From Chthoniobacter flavus (lineage in GTDB: Bacteria > Verrucomicrobiota > Verrucomicrobiia > Chthoniobacterales > Terrimicrobiaceae): a stretch of DNA of 46,737 bases. Position 1 is the stretch's first letter. Each line of letters starts with the position of its first letter. The stretch covers positions 1-46,737 of the forward strand of contig CAMCXK010000017.1 of NCBI GenBank assembly GCA_945883435.1, read 5' to 3'. Position numbers and translations under genes: made by a program. The notes under the pieces are model-generated. The model did not search any database. It saw only the letters and a list, made by a program, of their open reading frames with translations, and had not been told where the DNA came from. Below, one piece after another: positions 9,500-27,002 of this stretch.

Positions 9500-10260
9500 A
9501 AAACGTCAGGGCGCTCGGAAGGTTTTTGTGGTTCGTTTGGATCGTCGCCAGCGGGATCGTCGCGGTTTGTCCCTCGTTTCTACCCGGCGGGAATCGGGAT
9601 CGCCGGGCGGCATGGATGCAATGGATGAGCCGGAGATTGCTGCGGATGCTGGGTTGCAAGGTTCTTGTGACCGGGCGGATTCCCGTCCGTGGTCTCGTGG
9701 CTTCGAACCACCTCGGGTATGTGGACATTCTGGTCATCGGCTCGGTTTGCCCCTGTGTGTTCGTGGCAAAAAGCGATGTGCACGCTTGGCCGGTGTTCGG
9801 TCTTCTGGCGCGGTTGGCCGGCACGGTCTTTGTCCGGAGAAAAGCTCCCGCCGATGCCGCCCGGCAGGTGGATGCGCTTGGACCGGTATTGCGCGGGGGG
9901 CATCCGTTGGTTCTTTTTCCCGAAGGGACGAGTTCGGGGGGCGAAAGCGTGCTTCCATTCCGCAGTTCGCTGTTCCAAGCCGCGATTGCAGAAGATGTCA
10001 AAATGATTCCCGCGGCGATTCATTACCGGGTGGATCCACCGTTCTCGGTCGAACGGGATATCGCACTGTGGGGCGACATGAAATTGCCATTCCACCTTTG
10101 GAATCTTCTTGGGATCCGGTCGTTCGAAGCGGTCTTGGCATTTGGCGATCCGCTCGCGCCCGGTCGTGACCGCAAGATGGCCTGCCACCAGCTTCAGAAG
10201 GCGGTGGAAAAAATCCACATGGGGATCAGACCCTCGGGGCAAAATCAGAAGAAAAATTGA
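9496..10260 (+). CDS. PlsC/OlsA-like 1-acyl-sn-glycerol-3-phosphate or lyso-ornithine-lipid O-acyltransferase
   Basis: A 254-residue membrane-associated acyltransferase. ATG 9496 overlaps the OlsB-like stop (ATGA); the frame is open earlier, but only this start gives the usual short N-terminus and hydrophobic helix (about residues 8-27). The catalytic H-x4-D motif is NHLGYVD (about 71-77) and the phosphate-binding motif is FPEGTSS (about 140-146), both canonical. After an OlsB-like enzyme the likely job is the second step, esterifying the 3-hydroxyl of the N-acyl amino acid to give a two-chain aminolipid at the inner membrane. A phospholipid PlsC role is the alternative. The downstream gene starts within its stop codon. 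Confidence 0.82.
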   Translation: MKNVRALGRFLWFVWIVASGIVAVCPSFLPGGNRDRRAAWMQWMSRRLLRMLGCKVLVTGRIPVRGLVASNHLGYVDILVIGSVCPCVFVAKSDVHAWPVFGLLARLAGTVFVRRKAPADAARQVDALGPVLRGGHPLVLFPEGTSSGGESVLPFRSSLFQAAIAEDVKMIPAAIHYRVDPPFSVERDIALWGDMKLPFHLWNLLGIRSFEAVLAFGDPLAPGRDRKMACHQLQKAVEKIHMGIRPSGQNQKKN

Positions 10261-12659
10261 TCGTGGCACTCGATCAGATGGAAGCACAGGAGGCACAGCC
10301 ATTCGCGGAGCTGTGGGCGAAAATCGTGGCAGCACACGGCCAAATCACGGCTCTTGAAACCGTTGACCAGCGCTTGAGCTATGAAGAGTTGGACGCTTCG
10401 GCAAGGGCTGTGGCAAAAGGACTGGTCAAAAAGGCAACATGGCGGGCCGGAGCCCGGATCGGCCTTGAAGTTTCGAAGCCCGGTTTTTTTGGTGAACTGA
10501 TCGGCGTATGGCTCGCAGGTGGGGTGCCCGTGCCACTTCGAGAGGCGGTGCTGGCCAAGGAACCCGCGCTGCAGCGTCTGATCGATTCAATTTTAGAGGG
10601 GCGGGTGGAAACCGCCGAACTATCCTGCAAGCCACCCCTCCCCGGCGAGGAGTCTTGGCATGCCATTTTCTTCACTTCCGGTTCAACCGGTGAGCCCAAG
10701 GCCGTCGTGCGGGGATGGCGACAGGCTTATCACGAAGCCCGGTGCTATGCCGAATTGCTCGGGCTCGCGCCGGGAATGCGAACGGCGATGCTGATCGACC
10801 CGGTTTTCGGGGCATCCACCAAGCACTTTTTGGGATGCCTTTTGTCAGGATGCCTTCAGTCGTTCGGTTCCCGCTCCACGCGGGCGGGACATGTTCTTTA
10901 TGGCACGCCCGCCCAAGTGGTGGCCTTTGCAAAAGCAGGGTCTGCGAGTTTCGAGTGGGTCAGCCTCACCGGCGAGGCCTGCTCCCTGCAGGCTTGGCAA
11001 GCATCTGCCGGAGCAACCACTTCAAACGGCAAAATCCTGAATGCGCTCGGAGGATCGGAGTTCGGGGTTGCCGCAAACCAGGTTTTGAGTGCCCACTCCG
11101 AACGGCCCACATCGTTTTGTGGAGTGCCAATACGCGGCAAGACGCTTGAGGTCACCGACGAAGCCGGATCACCCCTCGCATCCGGCGAAGCCGGCCTGCT
11201 CCGGGTGGCGTCCAAAAATCTGGCTGAAGGCTATCTGGTGCCCTGTGGCGACGGGGCGCGACTGGAGCCTTTTCCAGAGCGGGCGGGCCATCGTTTCTTT
11301 TCCACGGGAGACGTGGGATGGATCGACCGAGACGGGCATTTTCATCATGCGGGCCGGGCCGGCAAAATGCAAAAGCGCGGGGGGCGCTGGATCGACACCA
11401 CGCCACTCCGTCGGATTTTGGAGTCCTGCGAAGGTATCCGCGATTTTCTCATCGATTGGCCCGCTGGTTCGCTTCGTCCCTTGGTCTGGTGCGTCATCGA
11501 AAAACCATCGACTTGCGGGTTGGAGTCGATTTCCAGCCGTATTTTGGCCAGTGACATGCCCGAACAATTGGTGCCGGTGGAACTCCGCGGCATCGGCCAA
11601 TTTCCAAGAAACCGGCATGGAAAAATCGACCTGACTGCATTGAGCGGCTCCCGGACCGGTGAAAAAGTTGATTTCGCCAAACTCGAGATTCCCGGCCGCA
11701 TTCAGCTTGTGGCGGACGCTCTGGAGCGGAGTGACTCTGCGGCCTTGATTTTCCGTGGAGTCCGATCATTGGCTTCGTTCGGCTTCGACTCCCTGTCGAT
11801 GCATGAGCTTGCGGCACGCCTCTCGGAGCGCACCGGGCACCCTGTATCGCCAGCCACTCTTTTAGCGGATGTGCCGATCGCGGCACTGGCTGCCCATCTT
11901 CGGACAAATGCCAAGGCGGCACTCCGGGGTTCGGAAGCCGCCGCCGGACGACCGCTGTTGCTATGGTTTGGCGACGGTCTGGTTGCGCTGCACGGTCGCT
12001 TGCCCCGGACTGTGCGACTGGAGGGAGTGGACTATGAACGCGCCACAACGGGATACGAAATCGCGGGGGTGGATGATCTCCACCGGTTCGCCGGGATACT
12101 CCTTGAGGCGAAATCCAGCTTGATCGGAGACCACCCCGTAGTGATTGGCGGGTTTTCCTTTGGATCATTGCTTGCCCATGAGGCCGGGATCATTTTTCAG
12201 AGGCGCAATGTGCCGGTGGCGGGCGTTTTTCTTGTTGATCCCCCCGACTTGGCTGCCCGCGCCATCCGCACCCCCTGGCGCTGGAGCCGCTGGAAACCGT
12301 GGATCTGGATCGCGGTTCTGACACCATGGCGCGGGGTGGCTCCTGCGATTCTTCAAAAGCGATTGTCCCGGGAATTCCGTTTGCTGCATCGTGAACGCCG
12401 CCGCGATTGGATGCGGAAATACCGGCCCACACCTTCAGACATCGAGACAACCCTATTCTGCTGCAGGGCTCACCTTGAAGATTCCGCAGCGCTTTTTGGC
12501 GCAACTTGCAGGCGGTTGAAAATTCACTCCCTCCCGGCAGAAACCCATCTGGATGTGCTTCGGGAAACGTCCTCTATTGAGGTATGGACAAGCCTGCTGG
12601 CAGCAGGGATTGAAAGAGGAGGGATTACCGGCGGTCGGGGTCGAACCGACACTTCGTAA
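10257..12659 (+). CDS. Single-module NRPS-like enzyme: adenylation - carrier - thioesterase
   Basis: An 800-residue protein. Adenylation domain (about 15-465): core A3 FTSGSTGEPK at about 138-147, an A5-like LNALGGSEFG, A7 FSTGDVGWIDRDG, A8 GRAGKMQKRGGRW and the A10 Lys in NRHGKIDL. Carrier domain (about 480-555): phosphopantetheine Ser 512 in FGFDSL. Thioesterase domain (about 565-785): nucleophile Ser 634 in GFSFG, with His in a late AETHLDVL segment as the likely base. No condensation domain is present. The start is a TTG in a TTGA overlap with the acyltransferase; GTG at 10263 is an alternative. The operon suggests it activates and releases an amino or hydroxy acid used by, or made from, the two acyltransferases. 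Its 3' end overlaps the convergent tRNA-Leu by 34 bases. Confidence 0.85.
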   Translation: MIVALDQMEAQEAQPFAELWAKIVAAHGQITALETVDQRLSYEELDASARAVAKGLVKKATWRAGARIGLEVSKPGFFGELIGVWLAGGVPVPLREAVLAKEPALQRLIDSILEGRVETAELSCKPPLPGEESWHAIFFTSGSTGEPKAVVRGWRQAYHEARCYAELLGLAPGMRTAMLIDPVFGASTKHFLGCLLSGCLQSFGSRSTRAGHVLYGTPAQVVAFAKAGSASFEWVSLTGEACSLQAWQASAGATTSNGKILNALGGSEFGVAANQVLSAHSERPTSFCGVPIRGKTLEVTDEAGSPLASGEAGLLRVASKNLAEGYLVPCGDGARLEPFPERAGHRFFSTGDVGWIDRDGHFHHAGRAGKMQKRGGRWIDTTPLRRILESCEGIRDFLIDWPAGSLRPLVWCVIEKPSTCGLESISSRILASDMPEQLVPVELRGIGQFPRNRHGKIDLTALSGSRTGEKVDFAKLEIPGRIQLVADALERSDSAALIFRGVRSLASFGFDSLSMHELAARLSERTGHPVSPATLLADVPIAALAAHLRTNAKAALRGSEAAAGRPLLLWFGDGLVALHGRLPRTVRLEGVDYERATTGYEIAGVDDLHRFAGILLEAKSSLIGDHPVVIGGFSFGSLLAHEAGIIFQRRNVPVAGVFLVDPPDLAARAIRTPWRWSRWKPWIWIAVLTPWRGVAPAILQKRLSREFRLLHRERRRDWMRKYRPTPSDIETTLFCCRAHLEDSAALFGATCRRLKIHSLPAETHLDVLRETSSIEVWTSLLAAGIERGGITGGRGRTDTS

Positions 12660-12707
12660 GAAACGCGATTTTGAGTCGCGCGCGTCTGCCAATTCCGCCA
12701 CGCCGGC
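12626..12707 (-). tRNA. tRNA-Leu (anticodon CAA)
   Basis: Read on the minus strand from 12707. The acceptor stem is GCCGGCG with CGCCGGT (one G-U pair at 1-72), followed by discriminator A. The D-arm contains GGAATTGGCAGAC. The anticodon stem is CGCGA/TCGCG around loop CTCAAAA, giving anticodon CAA for UUG codons. The long variable arm has a TTC/GAA stem, as expected for a class II leucine tRNA, and the T-arm GTCGG-TTCGACC-CCGAC is perfect. The 3' CCA is not encoded. The last 34 bases lie within the convergent adenylation-carrier-thioesterase gene. Confidence 0.96.
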
Positions 12708-15288: not shown

Positions 15289-17112
15289 ATGTTGCGCGCC
15301 GTGAAAACCACACCCTTGATTTGGCGCTTGATCATCATGGCCCTGGTGGCCGGCAGCGGACTGGCCGTCTCCTCCCCGGAGGTGGCGCTTCGAATGAAAG
15401 TCCCGCTTTTTTCGCCGCCGGGTCATCAACTGAAAGGTCCCGGGGCAAACAGCGAAAGCGCGTTTTTGCTGCCCCACCATGTCGAATTGATGCCCGGTGC
15501 GGAATTGCGGCTTCGTCTAACCGGCTCGCCCCTGCTGAAAAGCGGCTCGATTGTCACCATCGAGCTCAACGACCGCACCGTGACGGCATTTCCCTGGGAA
15601 AATCCGCCACCCGGGCAAGCTCAGGAGGTTGCGCTTCCGTTGATCGAGGGAGTGTTGCAGCCCGGATGGAACAGGGTGCGGGCGCGGGCGGCACTGGTTT
15701 CGAGTTTGGAGGAACCGTCCGGAAGCGACAATCCGGCGGCCTGGCTGCAATTTGAAAACGGCACGTGCATCGAGGTTCCATGGGCCCGCGGGGAGGAATT
15801 CCCCGAGTTGGCGCGATTTCCAGCCACCCTTGTGGAAGAGCATCTGCTCCGACAGGACGCACCTGAAGGGGAAACCCTCACGATTCTCTTGCCGGAGCAT
15901 CCGGACCAGTCCGAATTGAGAACGCTGCTCATTGCCTGTGCGCGCTTGGGACAGTCCAGCTGGATCCGGGCCGGCAACATCCGGATCGGCTCGCTCGCGG
16001 ATTGGCCGGAATTGAAAAGCCATGGATTTGGGCTGCTCATCGGACGAAGTGGCGAATTGCGAGGCCTGGGTTTGCCAAAGATCACCGGCGACGCCTTGAA
16101 ACGACTTCAGGAAGGAGAGGGACTTCTGGCCGACTTGGCGGGTGAGGACAGTTGCTCGCGGTGGATTCTGGCAAGCGGGGCTGATCCCGCGGGCATGGAC
16201 AAGGCAGCCCAGGCTCTTGGCAGCAGCCGCTCGATCAAAAATGCACCCTCAAACCAGTGGATCGTTCAAAACAATCCGGGTGATCCAGTGGCCGATGCGG
16301 CAACCGCCTCCAGCCAGGCGGCGAGGGCGGGTGGTTCAATCGGGTTGAATGATCTTTCCGACCTCCGGGCGATCGGAGCAAGAGACGCCCTCTTGAAAAA
16401 GTCCGTCGTTCTTGTTCCCGAAGAGAACACGCCGGCGCGGCAGGAAATTCTGAAAATTCTGGGCCTCGAGTGGGGTCGGCGTTGGAGCGAATCTCCGATG
16501 CTCTGGCCGGAGTTGGCGACCTACGGAAACGGCAACCCGCCTGCATTGGAGCGCGTGAAGGACCGGTCGGGATATGTTTTCGGGTCCGCGTCCCAGTGGG
16601 TGGACGCCTTCGAGAAAGATGGTTTGCTGGCAATCGATGCGGACTCCCAAGGGCAACTTCGATTGCGCAACGAACGGATGGTCGGCAGCACAACAGACGC
16701 CGAATGGTGCTTTGTGCAATGGGTCCCCTCCCCGTGGACCGCGGGAGAGGCTTTTGCGGTATTCGGAGGAGCCCGGGATTTCGGAGGAGACGCGCTGGTG
16801 CGCACCCTCACGATACCTGAAACCATCGAGCGCGTCGCAGGTTCGGTCGCGGCGGTGGATGTCGATGGACGCGTCGTCTGCTACGACACGCGAACCGCGC
16901 AGCCATTTTCCCTGTCAGAAAAGCTCGCGCACGAGGGCCAACAGGCCCCCGGAGCCATCGAGACCGAACGGGCTAGGATAGGCGAAGCGGAAATCCAAGC
17001 CGGTGTCGTCGACACATCGCTGTTGATCGCGGGAGCCCTTTTCTTGGGAGGCCTGTTTGCATGGCAACGCTGGGCTGTTCAGCGCCGGAAACAGCGGGAG
17101 GTCTTGAAATGA
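15289..17112 (+). CDS. BcsB-like polysaccharide synthase periplasmic/inner-membrane subunit
   Basis: A 607-residue protein with an N-terminal signal/anchor (about 10-28), a large extracytoplasmic region and one C-terminal helix (about 575-595) followed by a basic tail (RRKQREVLK). This one-helix C-terminal topology, the N-terminal beta domain with the VTIELNDRTV and VALPLIEGVLQPGWNRVRA strands, and the position before a glycosyltransferase match BcsB, which docks to the synthase and guides the glycan across the periplasm. Similarity is architectural and weak in sequence; repeats of the VPLFSPPGHQLKGPGA type near the start hint at the BcsB carbohydrate-binding domain. ATG 15289 is chosen as the nearest start before the hydrophobic segment. 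It overlaps the next gene by 4 bases. Confidence 0.6.
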   Translation: MLRAVKTTPLIWRLIIMALVAGSGLAVSSPEVALRMKVPLFSPPGHQLKGPGANSESAFLLPHHVELMPGAELRLRLTGSPLLKSGSIVTIELNDRTVTAFPWENPPPGQAQEVALPLIEGVLQPGWNRVRARAALVSSLEEPSGSDNPAAWLQFENGTCIEVPWARGEEFPELARFPATLVEEHLLRQDAPEGETLTILLPEHPDQSELRTLLIACARLGQSSWIRAGNIRIGSLADWPELKSHGFGLLIGRSGELRGLGLPKITGDALKRLQEGEGLLADLAGEDSCSRWILASGADPAGMDKAAQALGSSRSIKNAPSNQWIVQNNPGDPVADAATASSQAARAGGSIGLNDLSDLRAIGARDALLKKSVVLVPEENTPARQEILKILGLEWGRRWSESPMLWPELATYGNGNPPALERVKDRSGYVFGSASQWVDAFEKDGLLAIDADSQGQLRLRNERMVGSTTDAEWCFVQWVPSPWTAGEAFAVFGGARDFGGDALVRTLTIPETIERVAGSVAAVDVDGRVVCYDTRTAQPFSLSEKLAHEGQQAPGAIETERARIGEAEIQAGVVDTSLLIAGALFLGGLFAWQRWAVQRRKQREVLK

Positions 17113-18317
17113 TCCGGGCACTCGTTGCGGCCGGTCTGGCCTGTGTGCTGCCGGTGCAGGCGTCTCCCGAGGTGCTCATGGTGAGCGACGCGCCCGCAAA
17201 GCCGTTTTCGACCTTGAACGAGATCACTCCGGTGGAACTCGCCCTGGCAAGATTCGGCATGCGGTTGAAATCGTGCTCGACCACCGACCTTACTGCGGAC
17301 GATCTGGCGGCAGCCGATTACATCGTGGTGATGGGAGTGGCGGAATTTCCTCCGCCTGAAGCCGCGCGGATTTTGAAAGAGGCGAAAAAGCCGATCTTTG
17401 CCCTTGGAGCGGCTTGCCCACTGGCAGGAGACGGAATGCCGGTCCCGTCGAAGCCCACAGGACCGGTCGACGTGGGATATCGCGGCGCAACGTGGCACAC
17501 GTCATTGGACCCCTTTTACCCGGTGCGTTCGCCTGCGGCGATCGTCCTGGCCAGAGCCAGCGGACAAGCGACCCCTCTGGCATGGAGAATCGGAGAGAGG
17601 TTTGGCATGGCCACACTGCCCGGTTCGGGGCCATTGTCCCTGATTTTCGCCGATCTTCTGCAAGACTTTTTCCAATGGCGTCCCGCCTGGCCCTCCGGAT
17701 TGGTTTTGGTGTTGGAAAACTTTCATCCCGGCTGCGCGGCCGGAGATGTCCAACGGGTCGCGGACTATCTGGCGCACCGAAAAACACCCTTTGTAGTGGC
17801 GACCCAGATGAGCGATCTCCCCGCAGGAGAGCTCCCGATGCCGAAGGAGGAGTTTTTGGACTCGCTTCGATATCTTCAAAACCGCGGTGGAAGAATGTTT
17901 CTGACCGGAGGCGTATCGACCCGGTCCAAGTTCGAGGAGGCGGGGCTTGCCATCGACGGCACCATGACGTCGCCGCCCGGCGACGAGGGAGAAAGGGAAA
18001 TCGGTCTCGAATCCATTCCGGGCCTTGATCGACGCGATGCGAGGGAGTTCCGCATGGTTCTTCCCCGGCGTGGAACTTCGGGAGGCTGGCACCTGCCGGT
18101 CGGCGCCCGGGGAGGACTGGACGGCGAAATGAACCAACACCTTGCCGGGGACTTGAAACAACTGGGAAGCCTGCGCGGAGCGGTCGTGGTGCTGTTGATT
18201 CCCGCCTGGCTTCCCTTCAGGGCCCAGCGTGAAACGATCGACACCGCGCTCGCCAGCGGACTGGAGGCACTCGATCCGGTGCAGGCATTTCCTTTCAGCA
18301 AGGGGGAAATCCAATGA
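17109..18317 (+). CDS. Periplasmic DUF2334-like (polysaccharide deacetylase-fold) protein
   Basis: A 402-residue protein with a signal peptide (about 1-18). The first half (LNEITPVELALARFGMRL, ADYIVVMGVAEFPPPEAARI, KPIFALGAACP) resembles a glutamine-amidotransferase-like beta-alpha fold. The second half contains GLVLVLENFHPGCAAGDVQRVADYL and TPFVVATQM, which match the DUF2334 pattern (a position-specific acid or His early and an xPF segment). DUF2334 is related to polysaccharide deacetylases, so it could trim or modify the exported glycan, but metal ligands could not be confirmed. It is coupled by ATGA overlaps on both sides and is therefore part of the polysaccharide operon. Confidence 0.6.
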   Translation: MIRALVAAGLACVLPVQASPEVLMVSDAPAKPFSTLNEITPVELALARFGMRLKSCSTTDLTADDLAAADYIVVMGVAEFPPPEAARILKEAKKPIFALGAACPLAGDGMPVPSKPTGPVDVGYRGATWHTSLDPFYPVRSPAAIVLARASGQATPLAWRIGERFGMATLPGSGPLSLIFADLLQDFFQWRPAWPSGLVLVLENFHPGCAAGDVQRVADYLAHRKTPFVVATQMSDLPAGELPMPKEEFLDSLRYLQNRGGRMFLTGGVSTRSKFEEAGLAIDGTMTSPPGDEGEREIGLESIPGLDRRDAREFRMVLPRRGTSGGWHLPVGARGGLDGEMNQHLAGDLKQLGSLRGAVVVLLIPAWLPFRAQRETIDTALASGLEALDPVQAFPFSKGEIQ

Positions 18318-19876
18318 AGCGGACTTTGATCGTTTTTGTTACACCCCTCGCGTTGTTTGCCGGGGAGGATGCCCGCTCCACGGCCGAGAGTCTGTCGAAT
18401 CAGGGACGCCACGCCGAGGCGGTGGAATACTGGGAATCGGCCCGCTCCCAAGAACCCGGCAGCGAGGAACTGGCCATGGGCCTTGCCGCCGCACTGGTTT
18501 TCTCCGATCGCCAAAACGAAGCCCGGCCACTCTTGGAAGGATTGCGGAAATCGTGGAATCCCGAGACCGTGCGAATCGCTGAAACCAGCCTGCGCGCGCT
18601 CGAATCCGCGCGGGAAAAGGAACAGGCGGCCAAATCCGTGGAGGCAAACGCACGGGCAGAGCGGGATCTCCAGCGCCAGAAGCAGGCCCTTCTTGACAGG
18701 CGGCAGGCGGTTTACAGGCTCATCGACAGAGGACGGGACGAGGAGGCCGTGAGGGCCATCGATGCTCTGGAAGTTCGGGGCGAGGCGACTCCGGATCTGA
18801 TGCTCGAGAAATCCCATGCCTTCGAGCGCCTCGGCGATCCACTGGCTGCGATCGTCGTGTTGCGGGATTTGGCGCATCCGGAAAACCCCGACACCCGGCC
18901 GCGACGGCAGTTGGCCCATCTTTTGACCAAGCTGGGCCGCCCGGGCGAGGCCTACGAAATGTGGGAATCCCTGCGCGGAGGCCCCGATGACCTTGAGGCG
19001 CACAGGGCGATGCGCTCCCTGCCACCGTCGGCCCGAAACGATCAATGGTCGTGGGGGGAACTCGATCTCTACGGCACATTTCTCTCACGCTACGACATTG
19101 GAATTTCGACCGGCAAAATGCGACAGGGAACGTTTGTGCCCGGCCTCCGCTGGATCGAGCCATTCGTGCAGGCCGATTTCAGTCTCGACTCGACGGCCGG
19201 AGCCGACAGCGGGGGTATTCCCACCATCTACAATGAAAATTTGGCCGGCTTTCATGCCGGGGCGCGGGTTCGACCCTGGGCGGAAAGCGCATTTGTTCTT
19301 TACGTTCTGGGAGGAGTTCAAAAAGACCTGAGAGGAACGATTCAGAGGCAAGGCAATTGGTTTCCCGAAGTGATTGCCGGTTTCAACACGTTTCACTCCT
19401 GGGGGCCTGGAAGGAACCTCGCGCCGCCGGTTTTTGAAAGTGCCTCTCCCGCCGGAACGGGACCGGACGGGCGAACCGCAAACGGAGAACATCCCGTTTT
19501 CCTTCAGTGGCGGGGCGACTGGTTTGTCGAAGCCGGAGCCGACGGAGCCTACTACTCGAGGCTCTCGAACGCCATTGGCTACGGCCAGCTCCGCCAGGGC
19601 CTTCGCATCGCCAACTGGGGACGGGTCGCCGCGATGGATGGCTACGCCGTTGAAAACCTCACGATGGACACGCGGGGAAACTACTACGACAACTCCGCCG
19701 AGATCGGACCGGGGGCACGTTTTGTGATCAGCCCCTCCCCCGCGACAACCGTCACGGTCAGCACCGACTATGTGCTGGGAACCTATCTGGGTCGAAACGC
19801 CGGGGACACCCGGGGAGACACGGCTTCAAACTATGCGGATTTTCGCTTCACCGTCGCACTCTCGCTTCGCTGGTAA
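18314..19876 (+). CDS. NfrA/BcsC-like outer-membrane polysaccharide porin with TPR domain
   Basis: A 520-residue protein: signal peptide (about 1-16), a helical TPR-like region (about 20-225, e.g. LSNQGRHAEAVEYWESARS, LIDRGRDEEAVRAIDALE, LTKLGRPGEAYEMWESLRG) with a Glu/Lys/Ala-rich insert, then a C-terminal beta-barrel (about 235-520) of alternating aromatic strands ending in SLRW, the terminal aromatic expected of outer-membrane barrels. TPR plus barrel is the plan of BcsC, PgaA and NfrA. The barrel segment with GMRQ-type loops and PFVQADFSLDS is closest in feel to the NfrA C-terminal domain, and the next gene is NfrB-like. It is much shorter than E. coli NfrA (about 990 residues). It would export the glycan. 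Confidence 0.68.
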   Translation: MKRTLIVFVTPLALFAGEDARSTAESLSNQGRHAEAVEYWESARSQEPGSEELAMGLAAALVFSDRQNEARPLLEGLRKSWNPETVRIAETSLRALESAREKEQAAKSVEANARAERDLQRQKQALLDRRQAVYRLIDRGRDEEAVRAIDALEVRGEATPDLMLEKSHAFERLGDPLAAIVVLRDLAHPENPDTRPRRQLAHLLTKLGRPGEAYEMWESLRGGPDDLEAHRAMRSLPPSARNDQWSWGELDLYGTFLSRYDIGISTGKMRQGTFVPGLRWIEPFVQADFSLDSTAGADSGGIPTIYNENLAGFHAGARVRPWAESAFVLYVLGGVQKDLRGTIQRQGNWFPEVIAGFNTFHSWGPGRNLAPPVFESASPAGTGPDGRTANGEHPVFLQWRGDWFVEAGADGAYYSRLSNAIGYGQLRQGLRIANWGRVAAMDGYAVENLTMDTRGNYYDNSAEIGPGARFVISPSPATTVTVSTDYVLGTYLGRNAGDTRGDTASNYADFRFTVALSLRW

Positions 19877-19881
19877 TCACC

Positions 19882-22512
19882 ATGGACACCTTGCATTCCG
19901 TCTTTGTTTTTCTGGCTTACACAGCCGCCGTGGGATTTCTCGTCTTTGGCTTGGACGATCTCTTTTTCGACCTTCAATTCCTGCGGGCACTGCGCCGGAA
20001 GGAAAAAGAAACACCCGTCACGCTGGAAGCATTGAAAAACGAACCGGAGAAGCGGATCGCGATCTTTGTGCCGGCTTGGATGGAAGGCGGCGTGGTGGAT
20101 CGCATGGCGGAATACGCGCGGCGGATTTTGATTTACGACCGCTTCGACATCTTTGTGGGCGTCTATCCAAACGACGAAGAGACGAACGGCTGTGTGGATG
20201 CGCTGTGCGCACGGGTTGGCCGCATCAAGAAGGCGACAGTCCCCCATCCGGGGCCGACATCAAAGGCCGATTGCCTGAACGCCATTTTTGAGGAGATGCG
20301 CCGACAGGAGATTCCCGGGCGCATGCGCTACGAGATTGTTGCCTTGCACGACGCGGAGGATGTCCTGCACCCGCTGACTTTGAAGGTCTACAACCACCAT
20401 GTGCCGGATCGCCTTGATATGGCGCAAATCCCGGTCTTTCCCCTGGAATTGCCACCCTTGAGATATTGGGTCGGCAACTCGTATGCGGACGAGTTTGCGG
20501 AGTGGCATGCCAAGGATATGCATTCCCGCGAGGCGATTGGCGGCGTCGTGCCATCGGCCGGCGTCGGAACCGCTTTTTCCCGGAGGGCACTGGAGTTTCT
20601 CGCTCTCAAGCATGATGGAGGCCCGTTTCGCAACGGCCAACTCGCGGAGGACTACATGGTTGGTCTCGAACTGTGCCGCGCCGGCTACCGCACCGGATTC
20701 ATCGATCATCCAGTCGAGCGCGAGGCGCGCAAGGGCGAGGGTTCGCCGCGTCGAATCCTGGAGCGCGTGGCCGTGCGCGAGCATTTCCCGACACGATTCC
20801 GGGATGCCGTCCGTCAAAAAGCCCGCTGGATCATGGGAACAGCCTTTCAAGGCTGGGAGCATGGCGGTTGGTGGGGTTCCCCGACGGTTCGCTACACATT
20901 GCTGCGGGACCGCCGGGCCCCGGTCGTGCATGTGCTGAACGCGGCCGGTTACTGCGTGCTGGGATACGCCGCCTTCGAGTGGATTGTTCAAAGCACAAAC
21001 CTGCGAAATTCGGTCTATCTAAGGCCTCTTTTTGAGCAAGGCAGCCTTCTGTGGCGGATTGTTTTGGTCGATACCGTGCTGCTCGGCTACCGGGTGGCGC
21101 AAAAAGTGGGCTGCGTAACGGATGTTTACGGTCCCCGCCAAGGAATCATGGCGATTCCAAGATATCCGGTGGCGAGTGCCGTGAACCTGGGCGCCACCGC
21201 GCGGGCGGCGTGGCTTTACGGTGCGCACCGGATCTTCAACCGTCCGTTGGCATGGTCCAAAACCCGGCATGACTTTCCAGGCGCGGAGGCGCTTGACGAA
21301 TTCCATGGATCCATCGAAGACCTGCTCGTCGAGCAAGGATATGTAGACCGCGACAAGCTGGACGATGCGTTGAGACAAGCCAATGGGCGATCCGCCCCTC
21401 GCACCCTTTTGGAGATGCATCTCCTCGACGAGGATGAGTTTCTTCAAGTCTGGGCGCGTCACTCCGGCCTCCCGGCCCGCACCACTCGACTTTGCGGGCT
21501 CAATCCCGGAATTGTGGACACCTGGCCGGAGAAAACGGCTCTGCGTCTCGGAGCCATGCCGCTGGAAATCGACGGGCGGGCCATATGCGGCTTTTCGGAA
21601 CCTCCTGCGGAGAATGTTATCGCGGAATGCGAAAAGATTCTGGCTTGCCCGGTCGAGCCCGTTTTGTTGCGCCCGTCCAATCTTCAGGGCGTGCGGGAGT
21701 TTATCTATCCGCGCCGGCAGGCAACCATGCGGACCCGGGAGGCTTGGGATGGAATTCTCGCCGCACTGGCAGAGGAAACGCGCCGCCGTGTTGAAGAGGA
21801 TGCCGCCTGCCAACTGCGGAGCGTCGGCGAGTCGCTCACGATGGCGGGAGGAGCAGATGCGGCGGAACTAAGAGAGGCAATGGCGGATTGGTGCGGCGCG
21901 GTGCCAGCGGATCTCACAAGATCGACCCTGAGCGTCTCGCTTGCGAAAGCCCTGGGAGGGGTGTTTTGCGAAGTGCAACGGATCATTCCCCGCAGCGACG
22001 GGACCATCGCAATTGCTGCTCCCTTGCCGACTGAGCTGAAGGCCCATATCGCAGACATTCTCGGGGATGGTTTGGAATTCGTCACCGACACGCCGGAGCA
22101 GTTGCAAAGAGAGTGGTCCGCCCTTCTGCGCCTGCGTCTCGGCGAAGAGGAGTTCGCCAGGGCGCTGACCGCGAGTGGAGAGATTTCACCCGAGCAATTC
22201 CGCCGAGTGATCGAGATGCGGCGGCTCATCGCATCCCCGGTTGATGCCCTTTTGGAGCAACTCGGCCTGATCGGAAGAGAGCAGGCTTTGAGAGCGCTGA
22301 AGCGCTCCTCGAAACTTCCGGCAGCCAGGCCGGCTCCCGGCGACACAAATGAACTGCTCGCTCCCGGCTTCGCGGAGCGCACCGGCGCGCGGGTGCTTGA
22401 TCCGCGAAGCGACGGGCTGGTGATGATCATCGAGCGCCTGCTTGCGGAGGACGATCTGCGTGAGATCCACCGCCGCTGCGGACATGCCCCACTGATTTTT
22501 AAAATCCCATGA
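19882..22512 (+). CDS. NfrB-like processive glycosyltransferase with MshEN/GspE-N-like c-di-GMP-sensing modules
   Basis: An 876-residue protein. Two N-terminal hydrophobic stretches (about 8-28) precede a family 2 glycosyltransferase domain (about 50-330): IAIFVPAWMEGG, the metal site HDAED (about 155-159), the catalytic LAEDY (about 254-258) and QKARW (about 312-316) as the processive Q-x-x-R-W motif. Several membrane helices follow (about 350-440). The C-terminus has at least one GspE-N/MshEN-like module (about 476-615; LLVEQGYVDRDKLDDALRQ) and a second, similar one (about 700-830). MshEN domains bind c-di-GMP in related proteins, but the signature Arg-Leu-Gly is only partly kept here. In E. 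coli NfrB makes a ManNAc-containing glycan under c-di-GMP control. Longer than E. coli NfrB; a 5-base gap separates it from the porin gene. Confidence 0.8.
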   Translation: MDTLHSVFVFLAYTAAVGFLVFGLDDLFFDLQFLRALRRKEKETPVTLEALKNEPEKRIAIFVPAWMEGGVVDRMAEYARRILIYDRFDIFVGVYPNDEETNGCVDALCARVGRIKKATVPHPGPTSKADCLNAIFEEMRRQEIPGRMRYEIVALHDAEDVLHPLTLKVYNHHVPDRLDMAQIPVFPLELPPLRYWVGNSYADEFAEWHAKDMHSREAIGGVVPSAGVGTAFSRRALEFLALKHDGGPFRNGQLAEDYMVGLELCRAGYRTGFIDHPVEREARKGEGSPRRILERVAVREHFPTRFRDAVRQKARWIMGTAFQGWEHGGWWGSPTVRYTLLRDRRAPVVHVLNAAGYCVLGYAAFEWIVQSTNLRNSVYLRPLFEQGSLLWRIVLVDTVLLGYRVAQKVGCVTDVYGPRQGIMAIPRYPVASAVNLGATARAAWLYGAHRIFNRPLAWSKTRHDFPGAEALDEFHGSIEDLLVEQGYVDRDKLDDALRQANGRSAPRTLLEMHLLDEDEFLQVWARHSGLPARTTRLCGLNPGIVDTWPEKTALRLGAMPLEIDGRAICGFSEPPAENVIAECEKILACPVEPVLLRPSNLQGVREFIYPRRQATMRTREAWDGILAALAEETRRRVEEDAACQLRSVGESLTMAGGADAAELREAMADWCGAVPADLTRSTLSVSLAKALGGVFCEVQRIIPRSDGTIAIAAPLPTELKAHIADILGDGLEFVTDTPEQLQREWSALLRLRLGEEEFARALTASGEISPEQFRRVIEMRRLIASPVDALLEQLGLIGREQALRALKRSSKLPAARPAPGDTNELLAPGFAERTGARVLDPRSDGLVMIIERLLAEDDLREIHRRCGHAPLIFKIP

Positions 22513-23657
22513 AAAAAACCATCGCTGTCGTTCTGGGCACACGCCCGGAGGCCATCAAGCTGGCCCCGGTCGCCCGCCGCCTTCAATCCTCGGAATCACT
22601 CCAGCCTTATGTCATCTGCACCTCGCAGCACGGCGAGATGGCTGCTTCGACCCTTCGGCGCTTCGATCTGCAACCCGATCTCGACCTTCAAGTGATGCAG
22701 CCCCGTCAGTCGCTCCACGGACTGACCGCCGTCCTGGCCTCGCGCCTCGGGGAGGCGTTGCAGGAGCGGGAGATCGACGCTGTGCTGGTTCAGGGCGACA
22801 CCACCACCGCCATGGTTGGCGGGCTGTGTGCGTTTTATCATCGCATTCCCGTGGGACATGTGGAGGCGGGATTGCGATCCCACGACCGCTACTCGCCCTT
22901 TCCCGAGGAGATGAACCGCTCACTGCTAGGCCGGATGGCCACCTGGCATTTCGCGCCGACAGACTTTTCGGCCACCCAGTTGCTGCGGGAGAATATCGAC
23001 CGCGAAAGCATTCATGTCGCGGGCAACACCGTGGTCGACGCGCTCGAGTGGATGATTCAGAGGAGTTCCTCCCGTCCCCTTCCGGCAGGAGTTGAGGACG
23101 GGCGCTCGCGCATGATTCTGGTGACATGCCACCGGCGCGAAAACCACGGACAGCCCCTCCGATCGGTGGCGCTGGCCGTGCGGCATTTGGCGGATGGGCA
23201 CAGCGATTTGCGGATTGTTTTGCCCCTGCACCCGAATCCTGCGGTTCGCGAAGCCGTGCTGCCAGTGCTGGAGGGTAGCCCGCGGATCACAGTTTGCGAA
23301 CCTCTGGATCACGAGGATTTTTTGGCTCTTCTGCAAAGGGCCTATTTTGTGTTGTCGGATTCGGGAGGCGTGCAGGAGGAGGCCACCGCGCTGGGCAAAC
23401 CGGTGCTGGTTTTAAGGGAGGAAACCGAGCGCCCCGAAGGAGTGGAAGCCGGCACCTTGCGCCTGGTGGGCACCGACACGCCACGCATTTTACGGGAAGC
23501 CGAAATCCTGCTTAACGATGCGGATGCCTACCGTGCGATGAGCCGGGGATCTGGCGTCTTCGGAGACGGCCATGCCGCCGACCGCATCGCCGGCGTTCTC
23601 GAGCGGCATCTGGGCGGCGGTGCGGGAGACCCGGTTTTATCGAAAGGTTGGTTATGA
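22509..23657 (+). CDS. wecB: UDP-N-acetylglucosamine 2-epimerase, non-hydrolysing (WecB type)
   Basis: A 382-residue enzyme that interconverts UDP-GlcNAc and UDP-ManNAc in the cytosol. Canonical blocks: GTRPEAIKLAPV (about 10-21), QGDTTTAMVG (about 96-105), VEAGLRSHDRYSPFPEEMNR (about 119-138), the SDSGGVQEEA nucleotide site (about 284-293) and EETERPEGVEAGT (about 304-316). It starts inside the glycosyltransferase stop (ATGA), so sugar-nucleotide supply and polymerase are co-translated. This strongly suggests the exported glycan contains ManNAc or a derivative, as for the NfrAB glycan of E. coli, where WecB is also required. Confidence 0.93.
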   Translation: MKKTIAVVLGTRPEAIKLAPVARRLQSSESLQPYVICTSQHGEMAASTLRRFDLQPDLDLQVMQPRQSLHGLTAVLASRLGEALQEREIDAVLVQGDTTTAMVGGLCAFYHRIPVGHVEAGLRSHDRYSPFPEEMNRSLLGRMATWHFAPTDFSATQLLRENIDRESIHVAGNTVVDALEWMIQRSSSRPLPAGVEDGRSRMILVTCHRRENHGQPLRSVALAVRHLADGHSDLRIVLPLHPNPAVREAVLPVLEGSPRITVCEPLDHEDFLALLQRAYFVLSDSGGVQEEATALGKPVLVLREETERPEGVEAGTLRLVGTDTPRILREAEILLNDADAYRAMSRGSGVFGDGHAADRIAGVLERHLGGGAGDPVLSKGWL

Positions 23658-24034
23658 ACAGCCCCCTGCCGCCAACTGTTTTGATCGATGACGACCCGGA
23701 CGTTCTGGCGAGTCTGGGCGAAGTCTTTCGGGCATGGCCATGCCCAAGGATTGTTTGCCACGAATCGCCATTCGAGGCCGGCGCGGATGCCCGGGAGGCC
23801 GGGTTGGTGGTCTGCGATTACCGCTTTCCAGGAGCGAGCGGAGTCGAGTGGATTCGTGGATTGCGCGGGAATGGATGCCGCACGCCGGTGCTTCTCTTGT
23901 CGGGATCACCCGACCATGGAGCCGTGCTGGAGGCGTCCGGTCTCGATGCCTGCTGCTTTTTGGCAAAGCCGTTTTCACTGGATCAACTCGCCGGGGCACT
24001 CAGGGGCCTCTTGAGGAGCCTTGAAACTCAGTAA
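23654..24034 (+). CDS. Stand-alone response regulator receiver domain
   Basis: A 126-residue protein that is only a CheY-like receiver. The acidic triad is IDDDPDV (about 11-17), the phospho-acceptor Asp lies in VVCDYRFPG (about 56-64), a Ser follows in LLLSGSP, and the switch Lys is in LAKPFSLDQ (about 105-113). No output domain follows. ATG 23654 overlaps the epimerase stop. Single-domain receivers act as phosphate sinks, diguanylate cyclase partners or direct protein partners; here it could regulate the polysaccharide synthase. Its 3' end overlaps the convergent exosortase by 7 bases, so no terminator separates them. Confidence 0.88.
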   Translation: MNSPLPPTVLIDDDPDVLASLGEVFRAWPCPRIVCHESPFEAGADAREAGLVVCDYRFPGASGVEWIRGLRGNGCRTPVLLLSGSPDHGAVLEASGLDACCFLAKPFSLDQLAGALRGLLRSLETQ

Positions 24035-25050
24035 TCGTCGCGCGGAGGAGCGGGTGGATTGGCGGCAGACCCAGGCGCCCCGGGCGCCCCGGGAGGTTCG
24101 CTGCTTCGGGAAAAGTTTGCCAGCAAGCTTCCCAATCCCGCCATTCCCCCCAAGGCGACCACAAACACAACGTAGCCCGCCGCCATGTGGAACCAGGAGG
24201 GATCGGTCAGTGCGTTTTTTCCAATCGCGAATTCCGACCCGAAAACGATCGTTCCCAATGTCAGCATCAGAATGCGGGCGAGATTGCCAAGGATCGCCAA
24301 AGGGGCCGAAAACGCGAACAGCACGAGTTTTTGCCACCACGATTTCAAGGTGAACTGGGCGTAAAGAGCGCTCACCATCATCAAAGCAAAAAGCGAGCGG
24401 ATGCCCGAGCAGGGGTCCGCCACGTCCACGGCGAATTTGTGCCCGGCCGGAATGCCCAAGCCGGGGACAGGAGCGGAGAGAATGCCGGTGCCGTTTCGCA
24501 CCACTTCCAACCCAAGGGTATCCAGCACAAAAACCGCCCCGTGCGACATGAGCACCCGGAGAGGGAACGCAATGTAGTTGTCCAAAAAGGGCAGCGGCCA
24601 AGCAAAGACGAGAAACAACAATGGAAAGGCAAATGCCAAAAGAGTGCGCCCCCCGAGAAGGAACCAGACGCTTCCGATGAGCAGTCCCTGACACGCAAAA
24701 AAGCCTAAGTAATGGGTCGACATGCGGTAGCCGAGCCAGAAGAGAACAGCAGAAAAAACCACCACTCCAAGTCCGGCGAAAGAAGTCCCCACCGAGGGAA
24801 CCGGGGAGGCTTGAATCAAATAAACAAAAATTCCCAAGGCCAGCGGCAGGACCAAAAAGCAATGTTGCCAGTCCTCACCCTGGCCGCAGATGTTCGACCA
24901 TTGCTCGAAGAGAGGCACGCGCACCGCCCCGTATCCCTCCGAATAGGGCAGGAAAAAAAACAGCAGCGCGGGTATCATCCAAGCCACCACCGCCAACGCC
25001 AGCCAAGCCGGGGATGCATGCGACCGGATTTTTTCGATATAACCACTCAT
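24028..25050 (-). CDS. Exosortase family protein
   Basis: A 340-residue membrane protein with about eight helices. The transpeptidase triad of exosortases is visible: Cys 214 in DPCSGIRSL, Arg 259 in LGNLARILML and His 288 in SWFHMAAGY, in the correct order and between the expected helices. Exosortases recognise and cut the PEP-CTERM tripartite signal of secreted proteins, and a PEP-CTERM protein is encoded nearby at 26172. The C-terminus is a cytoplasmic Pro/Gly/Ala-rich tail with a short GAPGAPG repeat. ATG 25050 overlaps the stop of the upstream unknown gene. The subfamily number is not assigned. Confidence 0.88.
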   Translation of the reverse strand: MSGYIEKIRSHASPAWLALAVVAWMIPALLFFFLPYSEGYGAVRVPLFEQWSNICGQGEDWQHCFLVLPLALGIFVYLIQASPVPSVGTSFAGLGVVVFSAVLFWLGYRMSTHYLGFFACQGLLIGSVWFLLGGRTLLAFAFPLLFLVFAWPLPFLDNYIAFPLRVLMSHGAVFVLDTLGLEVVRNGTGILSAPVPGLGIPAGHKFAVDVADPCSGIRSLFALMMVSALYAQFTLKSWWQKLVLFAFSAPLAILGNLARILMLTLGTIVFGSEFAIGKNALTDPSWFHMAAGYVVFVVALGGMAGLGSLLANFSRSSEPPGAPGAPGSAANPPAPPRDDY

Positions 25051-26060
25051 GGATGCCGAGGAATGGACCCGAAAACACCGGTGGTTTCAATGCCCGAGGC
25101 ATCGTTTTTCACCGGATGAAGCGACCAGGCGCCTTCCGCCAATGCCTTTTGAATCGAAGGGCGCCGGGATTCAACAGACTGAACAAAACGGTTTTGATCA
25201 CCGAAATCCGCCAACCGGAATCCAAGCCGGGCCGCAGTCGTGGGCAGATCCATTTCCAAATACCAGTTGGCCAGCGAGGCGTCGGCGCTGACCGCCTCCC
25301 AGGCGGCACGTTTCCAGAAGTGGCCGGTGCCGAGCATCGAATAGGCCGGTTCAGACGGGTATGTGCACGACACGCAACTTGTCCAATGGGGGTGGGTGCT
25401 TCCATCGATGCGGCCCAAGTGGTAGCCAAGAACATCCGCACCGCGTTGGGCCAACCGCTCCAACACGCGGCGCGAAAGATCCGAGCAGAGCGGCAGGTGG
25501 TCGCCCTCGTGAAAAAGAACGTGGGTGTGGGGCGCATCACGCAGCCAAGCCGAAACGCGATCGAAGACCTCCCGGTAGCTCTGACGGTCGCGTTGATGGT
25601 CGCGCGTGCGGTGCGCCTTGCCCGCGAGGAGAATTTTGTTTTTGGCAGTCAACCGGTTGAATTCGACGGAGGGCCCTCCGTAGATCAGAAGCAGATCCTC
25701 ATCAGCAAACCCTGCCGCCCTCCACAACTCGAGAATGCGGGCTGCAATTTCAGGTGATCGGTGCTCCATGACAACCAGCAACACCCGTGCTTTTTCATCC
25801 AGTGGAGAGGATGGATAAACACTTGGCTCGTCCGGAACCGTCCAACCAATCTCCTGGCACCAGTAGGTGAGACGTTTCTGAGGCAAGGGAACCGGGATCA
25901 CATGGCTCTCAAAACCCAGGGTCCACACACGGCCTTCCCACGCCACGACCAGGCCGCGGCCAAGTTTGCGCCCGGTGCGACAGTCCCGGATCTCGGAACC
26001 AATCATCCGAAAAAACGCCACGCCGGCGTTGCGCAGGGCTTGTTTGAAGGCTCGAAACAT
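25047..26060 (-). CDS. Conserved-looking hypothetical protein coupled to the exosortase
   Basis: A 337-residue soluble protein I do not recognise. It has no signal peptide or helix. Features: a central stretch typical of nucleotide-sugar or hydrolase folds (ARVLLVVMEHRSPEIAARI, about 91-109; EDLLLIYGG), a histidine-rich THVLFHEGDHLPL (about 177-189) that might bind metal, and a later GTGHFWKRAAWEAV. The fold resembles a glycosyltransferase-like alpha/beta domain in outline, but no motif settles it. ATG 26060 has no Shine-Dalgarno; a terminator hairpin ends 9 bases before it. Its stop overlaps the exosortase ATG, so it probably functions with exosortase or glycan. Confidence 0.62.
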   Translation of the reverse strand: MFRAFKQALRNAGVAFFRMIGSEIRDCRTGRKLGRGLVVAWEGRVWTLGFESHVIPVPLPQKRLTYWCQEIGWTVPDEPSVYPSSPLDEKARVLLVVMEHRSPEIAARILELWRAAGFADEDLLLIYGGPSVEFNRLTAKNKILLAGKAHRTRDHQRDRQSYREVFDRVSAWLRDAPHTHVLFHEGDHLPLCSDLSRRVLERLAQRGADVLGYHLGRIDGSTHPHWTSCVSCTYPSEPAYSMLGTGHFWKRAAWEAVSADASLANWYLEMDLPTTAARLGFRLADFGDQNRFVQSVESRRPSIQKALAEGAWSLHPVKNDASGIETTGVFGSIPRHP

Positions 26061-26097
26061 AAAAACCAATCGGCGAATCCTTATGGGATTCGCCGAT
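26061..26097 (-). terminator. Rho-independent terminator after the PEP-CTERM gene
   Basis: A perfect 12-base inverted repeat (26069-26080 and 26086-26097) with a 5-base loop is followed on the minus strand by GG and five T residues, ending beside the ATG at 26060. This has all parts of an intrinsic terminator for the PEP-CTERM transcript, whose stop lies about 75 bases upstream. It also sits directly in front of the unknown gene, so it could attenuate read-through into that gene and the exosortase. Confidence 0.82.
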
Positions 26098-26171: not shown

Positions 26172-26942
26172 TCAAGCCCTGCGGCGGGCCAGACGGAACA
26201 TGATCAAGACCACCCCCATGCCCAGGAGACCCAGGGTGGCTGGTTCAGGAACGATCGAAAGGTTGTTAAAATACATTTGGCGCTGGTCAACCCCAGATTC
26301 CGTGGCGTTGAAATAAAACTGGAAGTTATCTGCCCGTCCGGCCAGACCGGTAAATGTGTTGTCGTAGCTTTCCGAACCGTTGCGACCCGTTCCGTAGACA
26401 CGGATGCTCGTTTCGGAAACTTGCTGGAAGTTTAAAACAAAGGCTTGGGAGCCATAGTTGGTGAACATATTGCTGCCATTGATCTTGATCGTGGCAGAGT
26501 CACCCATATTAATGTTCAACAGCTGGGAGCCACCGCTTTTGAGGTTGAATCCCCGATTGGAGGAGGCGTTGAAGCTGTCGTAATTCAAGCCCCACTGGAA
26601 GCTGAACGTCTCGCCGTCTTGGAGAGCTTGGCTGAAACCGCGGCTTGCATCGATGTTCGCCCCCGAGCCAATCGGATTCGCATAGAAGCCCCACGAATTC
26701 GAACTCATGCCGGAGATTCCGGCCGCTGAGGGATCACCGATAAACGTTCCCGCCGCACCGCTGCCGGCCGTTACAGCAAAGCCCCAGCCTCCAAAGCCCG
26801 TGCCGCCATTGGCGCCATTGGATGCCCAAGCCGGCTCGCCAGATCCATTATAATTGCTGGCATCGTCCGAGGCGATGATGGCAAAGGCTTGGGAAGCGGC
26901 CAACGAGGTGGCCAGCACACCGAGAAGGAGGGTTTTTTTCAT
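26172..26942 (-). CDS. PEP-CTERM sorting domain-containing secreted protein
   Basis: A 256-residue protein with a Sec signal peptide (MKKTLLLGVLATSLAASQAFA) at the N-terminus and a PEP-CTERM tail at the C-terminus: VPEPATLGLLGMG, hydrophobic helix, then RLARRRA. The middle is rich in Gly/Ser/Asn and beta strands, without Cys, like many surface PEP-CTERM proteins of unknown function. ATG 26942 is used because it gives a clean signal peptide; the frame stays open to 27002. It is a likely exosortase substrate. A perfect TTGACA promoter box lies upstream and a terminator follows, so it is a single-gene unit. Confidence 0.93.
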   Translation of the reverse strand: MKKTLLLGVLATSLAASQAFAIIASDDASNYNGSGEPAWASNGANGGTGFGGWGFAVTAGSGAAGTFIGDPSAAGISGMSSNSWGFYANPIGSGANIDASRGFSQALQDGETFSFQWGLNYDSFNASSNRGFNLKSGGSQLLNINMGDSATIKINGSNMFTNYGSQAFVLNFQQVSETSIRVYGTGRNGSESYDNTFTGLAGRADNFQFYFNATESGVDQRQMYFNNLSIVPEPATLGLLGMGVVLIMFRLARRRA

Positions 26943-26969
26943 GTGTATGGGGTGGGTTGGGGTTACGGG

Positions 26970-27002
26970 GATATAAATTCCCAATTTGAACGTTCCTGTC
27001 AA
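26970..27002 (-). promoter_or_regulatory. Candidate sigma-70-type promoter of the PEP-CTERM gene
   Basis: On the minus strand a perfect TTGACA (27002-26997) is followed, after 21 bases, by TATATC (26975-26970), or with closer spacing by a weak AATTTA. The -35 is exact, the -10 partial. The transcript would start about 25 bases before the ATG at 26942; no Shine-Dalgarno is present. Confidence 0.45.

Follow-up and report, generated by a model that had tools for sequence, protein, structure and literature searches.

Is the exopolysaccharide operon of a freshwater member of the Verrucomicrobiota still controlled by cyclic di-GMP (c-di-GMP), or does it only carry the fold of a c-di-GMP sensor? The question is raised by positions 15289-24034 (plus strand) of a contig attributed to Chthoniobacter flavus (CAMCXK010000017.1, 46,737 nucleotides, hereafter the window), where six co-directional open reading frames (ORFs), all open, encode among others an NfrB-type polysaccharide synthase and WecB. 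Switching by an MshEN domain is known for few polysaccharide synthases, NfrB being one of them, and a first-pass annotation of the window had described the locus as a c-di-GMP-type NfrAB operon with BcsB- and DUF2334-like subunits and its own supply of UDP-N-acetylmannosamine (UDP-ManNAc). Our analysis indicates that the operon is real and conserved and that it represents a known kind of system, here no longer coupled to c-di-GMP. The preferred explanation, to which we assign a probability of roughly 0.77, is a UDP-ManNAc-fed exopolysaccharide synthase and exporter that descends from a c-di-GMP-activated ancestor and has been disconnected from that signal. The NfrB/WecB operon was recovered as described, including its BcsB-like subunit, a subunit derived from DUF2334 and a tail with the MshEN fold, but neither the c-di-GMP label nor the novelty of the combination held. 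The window genome (2.84 Mb, 97.6% complete) has as its nearest named relatives metagenome-assembled genomes (MAGs) of Verrucomicrobiota labelled Spartobacteria, Terrimicrobiaceae or Chthoniobacter.

The NfrB tail and the apparent loss of c-di-GMP signalling

Searches of the window proteins with Pfam and NCBIfam profiles matched the product of 19882-22512 to the NfrB family NF008411 (E-value 1.8e-128; 430 bits, below the equivalog cut-off of 1170), with a family 2 glycosyltransferase (GT2) catalytic domain in residues 58-319 (20053-20838; Glyco_tranf_2_3, E-value 1.2e-37), as expected of the NfrB-like glycosyltransferase proposed earlier. The GT2 motifs HDAED, AEDY and QKARW are retained, and these motifs are essentially retained across 12 NfrB proteins of Verrucomicrobiota. 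At residues 255-258 nine of these 12 have AED for the usual TED, a substitution seen in none of 67 other NfrBs.

The tail matches MshEN only weakly at the level of sequence profiles (20.3 bits vs a cut-off of 23.1; for NF053729, 27.4 bits vs 38), while an AlphaFold2 model of residues 465-876 (pLDDT 86.4; the alignments behind our AlphaFold2 models were shallow, 13-16 rows) preserves the fold that had been suspected for the C-terminus. Module 1 (residues 474-614; 21301-21723), the equivalent of the c-di-GMP module of E. coli NfrB, superimposes on MshE (5htl; Z 13.4, root-mean-square deviation 3.0 over 135 residues). It is followed in tandem by two homologous modules, module 2 (residues 615-752; 21724-22137; hhalign to module 1: 97.8%, E-value 9.8e-13) and module 3 (residues 752-876; 22135-22509; to module 1: 96.5%, E-value 9.7e-10; to module 2: 93.4%, E-value 2.5e-7).

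Proteins of this kind bind c-di-GMP through two copies of the consensus (R/K/L)LGxx(LVI)(LVI)xxG(LVI)(LVI)xxxxLxxxxLxxQ (PMC11731258). In module 1 of the window NfrB both copies are erased: the first starts with SIE (21310-21318) at the position of RLG/PLG (L490-G491 in E. coli) and the second with SAP (21391-21399) at the position of RLG (L518-G519), so that both G491 and G519 are lost. The glycine of motif position 3 is replaced, by Glu in one copy and by Pro or Ala in the other, in every verrucomicrobial NfrB examined: it is kept at neither site in 12/12 of them and at both sites in 61/67 others (Fisher p=3.6e-10, a value to be read as one event and not twelve, given the relatedness of the sequences). 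Since the Verrucomicrobiota NfrBs form a single clade with 100/100 support, in which the window protein sits on a long branch, the most reasonable count is a single loss in their ancestor, with SIE and SAP conserved thereafter. Separate partial or full losses were found in Dyella, Rhodanobacter and Oleiagrimonas (some Rhodanobacteraceae) and in one Halomonas. A scan for the 10-residue consensus motif found none anywhere in the tails of seven NfrBs, and the RLG motif is likewise missing from the remaining MshEN-type proteins identified in the window genome. In E. coli NfrB the G491L substitution is reported to abolish, and G519S to reduce, infection by phage N4 (PMC8669472), and in a GSPII construct of PilF Ser at position 1 of motif II abolishes binding, while Ala in place of the Gly makes it weaker (PMC12002112).

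The enzymes of the signal appear to have been lost as well. Profile searches of the window genome for GGDEF, EAL and PilZ returned 0, 0 and 0 matches, while matches were obtained in E. coli and other controls; all three are also missing from a 100% complete congener (G017), and no PilZ protein was found in the genus. The sister genera retain GGDEF, EAL and mostly PilZ, the PilZ matches lying in frames of 750-780 residues. A single genome (G025) of the 12 in the genus that carry the operon has an intact GGDEF protein, together with EAL, and two others retain fragments only: one (G012) has an 87-residue cyclase fragment, and another (G013) cyclase and phosphodiesterase fragments side by side, 82-85% identical to the intact genes of G025. 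Such cyclase and EAL phosphodiesterase fragments of operon-bearing congeners, at L142:1829-2276 and L141:860-1120, appear to be decayed genes. GGDEF is kept in 3/4 congeners without the operon (p=0.027, with small numbers of related genomes). The genomes of two loci with related NfrBs (L047 and L048) have no GGDEF while that of a third (L049) has four matches in spite of the erased motif of its NfrB; this suggests that the motif was probably lost before the cyclases. With both motifs of the aligned module erased and GGDEF, EAL and PilZ missing from the genome, the designation "c-di-GMP-type" was abandoned. If sites and enzymes are both lost, the synthase should be active constitutively or answer to a different input.

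Partners of the synthase, their conservation and their known counterparts

The six coupled plus-strand genes are all present as first annotated. Of the ATGA overlaps reported for them, those at four of the five junctions (BcsB/DUF2334-like, DUF2334-like/pore, NfrB/WecB and WecB/receiver) were recovered; the pore gene and NfrB are separated by a 5-base gap. A promoter scan of the operon detected no promoter and was uninformative.

The first gene (15289-17112) encodes a BcsB-like, membrane-anchored periplasmic subunit, which the PF03170 profile identifies above its gathering score (56.8 bits vs a cut-off of 21; E-value 1.7e-15), in agreement with the earlier assignment. A search against PDB sequences gave no match, and the hhalign comparison with proteobacterial BcsB (95%) extends over only ~115 columns. 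The window protein lacks ~130 residues corresponding to a second carbohydrate-binding-type region (alignment columns 402-515) that is present in all nine relatives compared. It also lacks the conserved Cys (CRDVDN) of the preceding region, kept in the same nine, possibly a coordinated loss.

The product of 17109-18317 is a periplasmic protein derived from the DUF2334 family. Its own match to the DUF2334 profile is not significant (E-value 0.23) and was rejected as sufficient evidence, a profile-profile comparison being required; the profile of its genus matches bona fide DUF2334 proteins (hhalign against six proteobacterial and myxobacterial members: 98.1%, E-value 6.6e-14, 263 columns), which supports the relationship originally suggested. 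The motifs HGxTHQ and FFxHP, invariant in those six, are replaced by LTGGVST and LLIPAW in the window protein and are missing from every other verrucomicrobial homologue aligned. In the AlphaFold2 model (pLDDT 77.8) a glutamine-amidotransferase-like N-terminal domain (Z 15.8) dominates the PDB matches. The comparison with deacetylases that had been proposed for this product thus gave a weak match for the C-terminal domain (chitin deacetylase 2vyo, rank 36, E-value 7.3e-4), the best matches going to the N-terminal domain. Because the invariant histidine motifs are lost, a non-catalytic, glycan-handling role is predicted.

The third protein (18314-19876) contains tetratricopeptide repeats (TPRs; TPR_14, E-value 2e-11) and probably a C-terminal outer-membrane barrel ending in Trp, as its position and C-terminal pattern suggest; it would serve as the export pore. 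Of the NfrA-like TPR/barrel porin foreseen here the TPRs were found, but NfrA_C (PF13283) gave no match at E-value ≤0.1, while it recognizes the NfrAs of Citrobacter and Stenotrophomonas at 6.4e-60 and 4.1e-23. NfrA_C was likewise not found in the other verrucomicrobial pores tested, and hhalign of the genus pore with real NfrAs matches the TPR part only.

WecB (22509-23657), the non-hydrolysing UDP-GlcNAc 2-epimerase, scores 443 bits against TIGR00236 (cut-off 210), which leaves its annotation unchanged. Its gene is translationally coupled to NfrB in the window and adjacent to it in congeners, and a survey reports that wecB is frequently linked to nfrB and that species with NfrB but no other wecB carry one beside nfrB (PMC8669469). 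That WecB supplies UDP-ManNAc is a well-founded expectation by analogy with E. coli. The last gene (23654-24034, ATG start) encodes the lone receiver noticed at first reading (Response_reg, E-value 6.9e-13), with the phospho-acceptor residues (DDD, CDYRFP, SG, KPF) intact here and in all congeners aligned.

NfrB family searches gave a match in 16/26 genomes. The whole operon is confined, among these 26, to the genus of the window genome, where it is present in 12/16 genomes, the window genome and small genomes included. All congeneric loci long enough to show it share the order BcsB, DUF2334-like, pore, NfrB, WecB, which places the operon far from chance. The receiver follows WecB in seven congeners (G011, G012, G013, G016, G019, G022 and G024), and two (G015 and G017) have the operon without a receiver beside WecB. 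Two further congeners (G014 and G020) have only a protein with the MshEN tail, and two (G021 and G023) have no NfrB match. A search of 388 genomes across the phylum found the DUF2334-like protein in this genus only. Related operons, likewise with BcsB and a DUF2334-like gene nearby, occur in Limisphaerales (L047) and in another family of the same order (L049). Among the ORFs chosen beside the NfrBs of L047-L049 none aligned as a receiver, in a search that was not exhaustive. One congener (G015) has a second copy of NfrB and WecB on another contig (L018, G015:C39). In two congeners without the operon, proteins at L029:3155-4615 and L028:9913-11412 combine an NfrB-like first membrane helix with an MshEN tail and have no glycosyltransferase domain; both adjoin a parA-like gene and both genomes have GGDEF proteins.

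The NfrA-NfrB-WecB system of E. coli, which makes the NGR glycan, the receptor of phage N4 (PMC8669472, PMC8669469), shares with the window an NfrB composed of GT2 and an MshEN tail, a WecB supplying UDP-ManNAc and, probably, an export pore of the TPR/barrel type. Compared with it, the window operon adds the BcsB-like, DUF2334-like and receiver genes, the first two of which the E. coli locus lacks, as had been correctly stated, and includes wecB; it has three MshEN modules, has lost the c-di-GMP motifs and has a pore without NfrA_C. The combined architecture, however, is not the distinct machine that it had been suggested it might be. In Ramlibacter pallidus (L087) wecB, DUF2334, BcsB and NfrB, four of the six parts, lie in one locus, and the proposal that this set is unique was rejected; unlike in the window, the Ramlibacter DUF2334 match is strong (E-value 1.1e-45) with HGFTHQ kept, and the c-di-GMP motifs are kept (RLG/PLG). 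Parts of the set recur in Stenotrophomonas (L057: BcsB, NfrB and NfrA) and Hyalangium (L089: NfrB, wecB and DUF2334), and for Achromobacter xylosoxidans a cluster of nfrA, nfrB, wecB and a BcsB homologue has been published, which also has O-acetyltransferases; the passage on this cluster names neither DUF2334 nor a receiver (PMC8669472). The Hyalangium NfrB (L089:7998-9593), whose gene lies next to wecB and to a DUF2334 gene with a strong match, appears to have no MshEN tail. The cellulose synthase Bcs is similar in its periplasmic BcsB-type subunit, GT2 synthase and probable TPR/barrel pore, but the window synthase is of the NfrB type and has MshEN in place of PilZ. Three tandem GSPII/MshEN domains are also found in PilF of Thermus thermophilus (PMC11731258, PMC12002112), which, unlike the window protein, is a pilus ATPase with two modules that bind c-di-GMP.

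The known range of NfrB-type synthesis with partners of the BcsB and DUF2334 families is extended by this operon to freshwater members of a phylum, the Verrucomicrobiota, that the published survey of NfrB does not name (PMC8669469). In the literature searched NfrB was not found named together with Verrucomicrobi-, and the GGDEF search for the phylum added nothing in the matches listed.

Mechanism and alternative explanations

On the model of the E. coli system and on what is known of the protein families, WecB would convert UDP-GlcNAc to UDP-ManNAc, from which the GT2 domain of NfrB would build, at the inner membrane, an exopolysaccharide containing or derived from ManNAc and move the chain across. 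The BcsB-like subunit would take it up in the periplasm, the DUF2334-derived protein would bind or guide the chain but not deacetylate it, and export through the outer membrane would be by way of the TPR/barrel protein. The verrucomicrobial lineage has kept the tail, three modules long, but has lost its c-di-GMP sites, and most genomes of the genus have lost cyclases and phosphodiesterases too, so that the synthase would be constitutive or under another input, for which the receiver of the operon is the nearest candidate.

Several observations weigh against this explanation. The genome of G025 combines the operon with an intact GGDEF/EAL set, although its NfrB reaches the contig end before the MshEN tail, and the four GGDEF matches accompanying the erased motif of L049 indicate that loss of the motif and loss of the cyclases are not strictly coupled. 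The pore lacks NfrA_C, DUF2334 is scarcely mentioned in the literature searched, so that its loss of activity follows from motif logic, and the genomes compared are MAGs. These same two GGDEF-bearing genomes, the clearly kept MshEN fold and the variation of motif position 1 in other binders (PMC11731258) could be taken to mean that the NfrB tail still responds to c-di-GMP. We regard this as unlikely, given that it is the position-3 glycine that is replaced in both motifs throughout the verrucomicrobial NfrBs, that the tails scanned hold no consensus motif elsewhere, that the other MshEN-type proteins of the window genome also lack RLG, and that the GGDEF, EAL and PilZ proteins are missing from two genomes and decayed in two relatives. 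It is less probable still that the operon is a relic in which synthesis has ended and the genes are drifting, as might be read from the region lost by the window BcsB, the long branch of its NfrB and the congeners that lost the operon and retain only a transmembrane-MshEN remnant; the six frames are open and coupled, the key features of the glycosyltransferase, WecB and the receiver are intact, and three quarters of the genus, small genomes included, keep the operon.

A different doubt concerns the product. BcsB belongs to cellulose-type machines and ManNAc is assigned to this NfrB by analogy, hence the operon might make a cellulose-like or other glycan while WecB serves another pathway; the coupling of wecB to NfrB here, its adjacency in congeners and its linkage to nfrB in species without another copy (PMC8669469) make this doubtful. 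Somewhat more credible, though tentative, is the idea that the triple MshEN tail has been rewired, with c-di-GMP signalling lost altogether, to another ligand or to the phosphorylated receiver, which would dock on the tail and switch the synthase in place of c-di-GMP. The receiver, a candidate replacement input, closes the operon in most congeners with a contig long enough to include it, its phospho-acceptor residues are intact, and MshEN-fold domains can bind proteins (the N-domain of PilB with PilZ, 7lko, is among the fold matches). Opposed to this are the two operon-bearing species with no receiver beside wecB, which leave room for constitutive action or another ligand, and the fact that no kinase gene was recognised beside the receiver, among neighbours that are partly annotated. 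Under the preferred explanation of a synthase uncoupled from c-di-GMP, a fold kept while its ligand site and the enzymes of the ligand are lost amounts to a natural experiment on synthase gating and re-regulation, and an MshEN match, or an NfrB annotation that names c-di-GMP, does not show c-di-GMP control.

Among the neighbouring genes, an exosortase (24028-25050, minus strand; Exosortase_EpsH, E-value 3.5e-41) converges on the end of the operon. It was ruled out as an operon member, being on the opposite strand and not found in the flanks of the congeneric loci. It is overlapped by a gene without a Pfam or NCBIfam match (25047-26069, minus strand), and a PEP-CTERM protein is encoded nearby (26172-27002, minus strand). 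Upstream of the operon, 10257-12659 (plus strand) encodes adenylation, carrier and thioesterase domains, as in a small nonribosomal peptide synthetase-like protein, and a tRNA-Leu gene (12626-12707, minus strand) overlaps its called 3' end.

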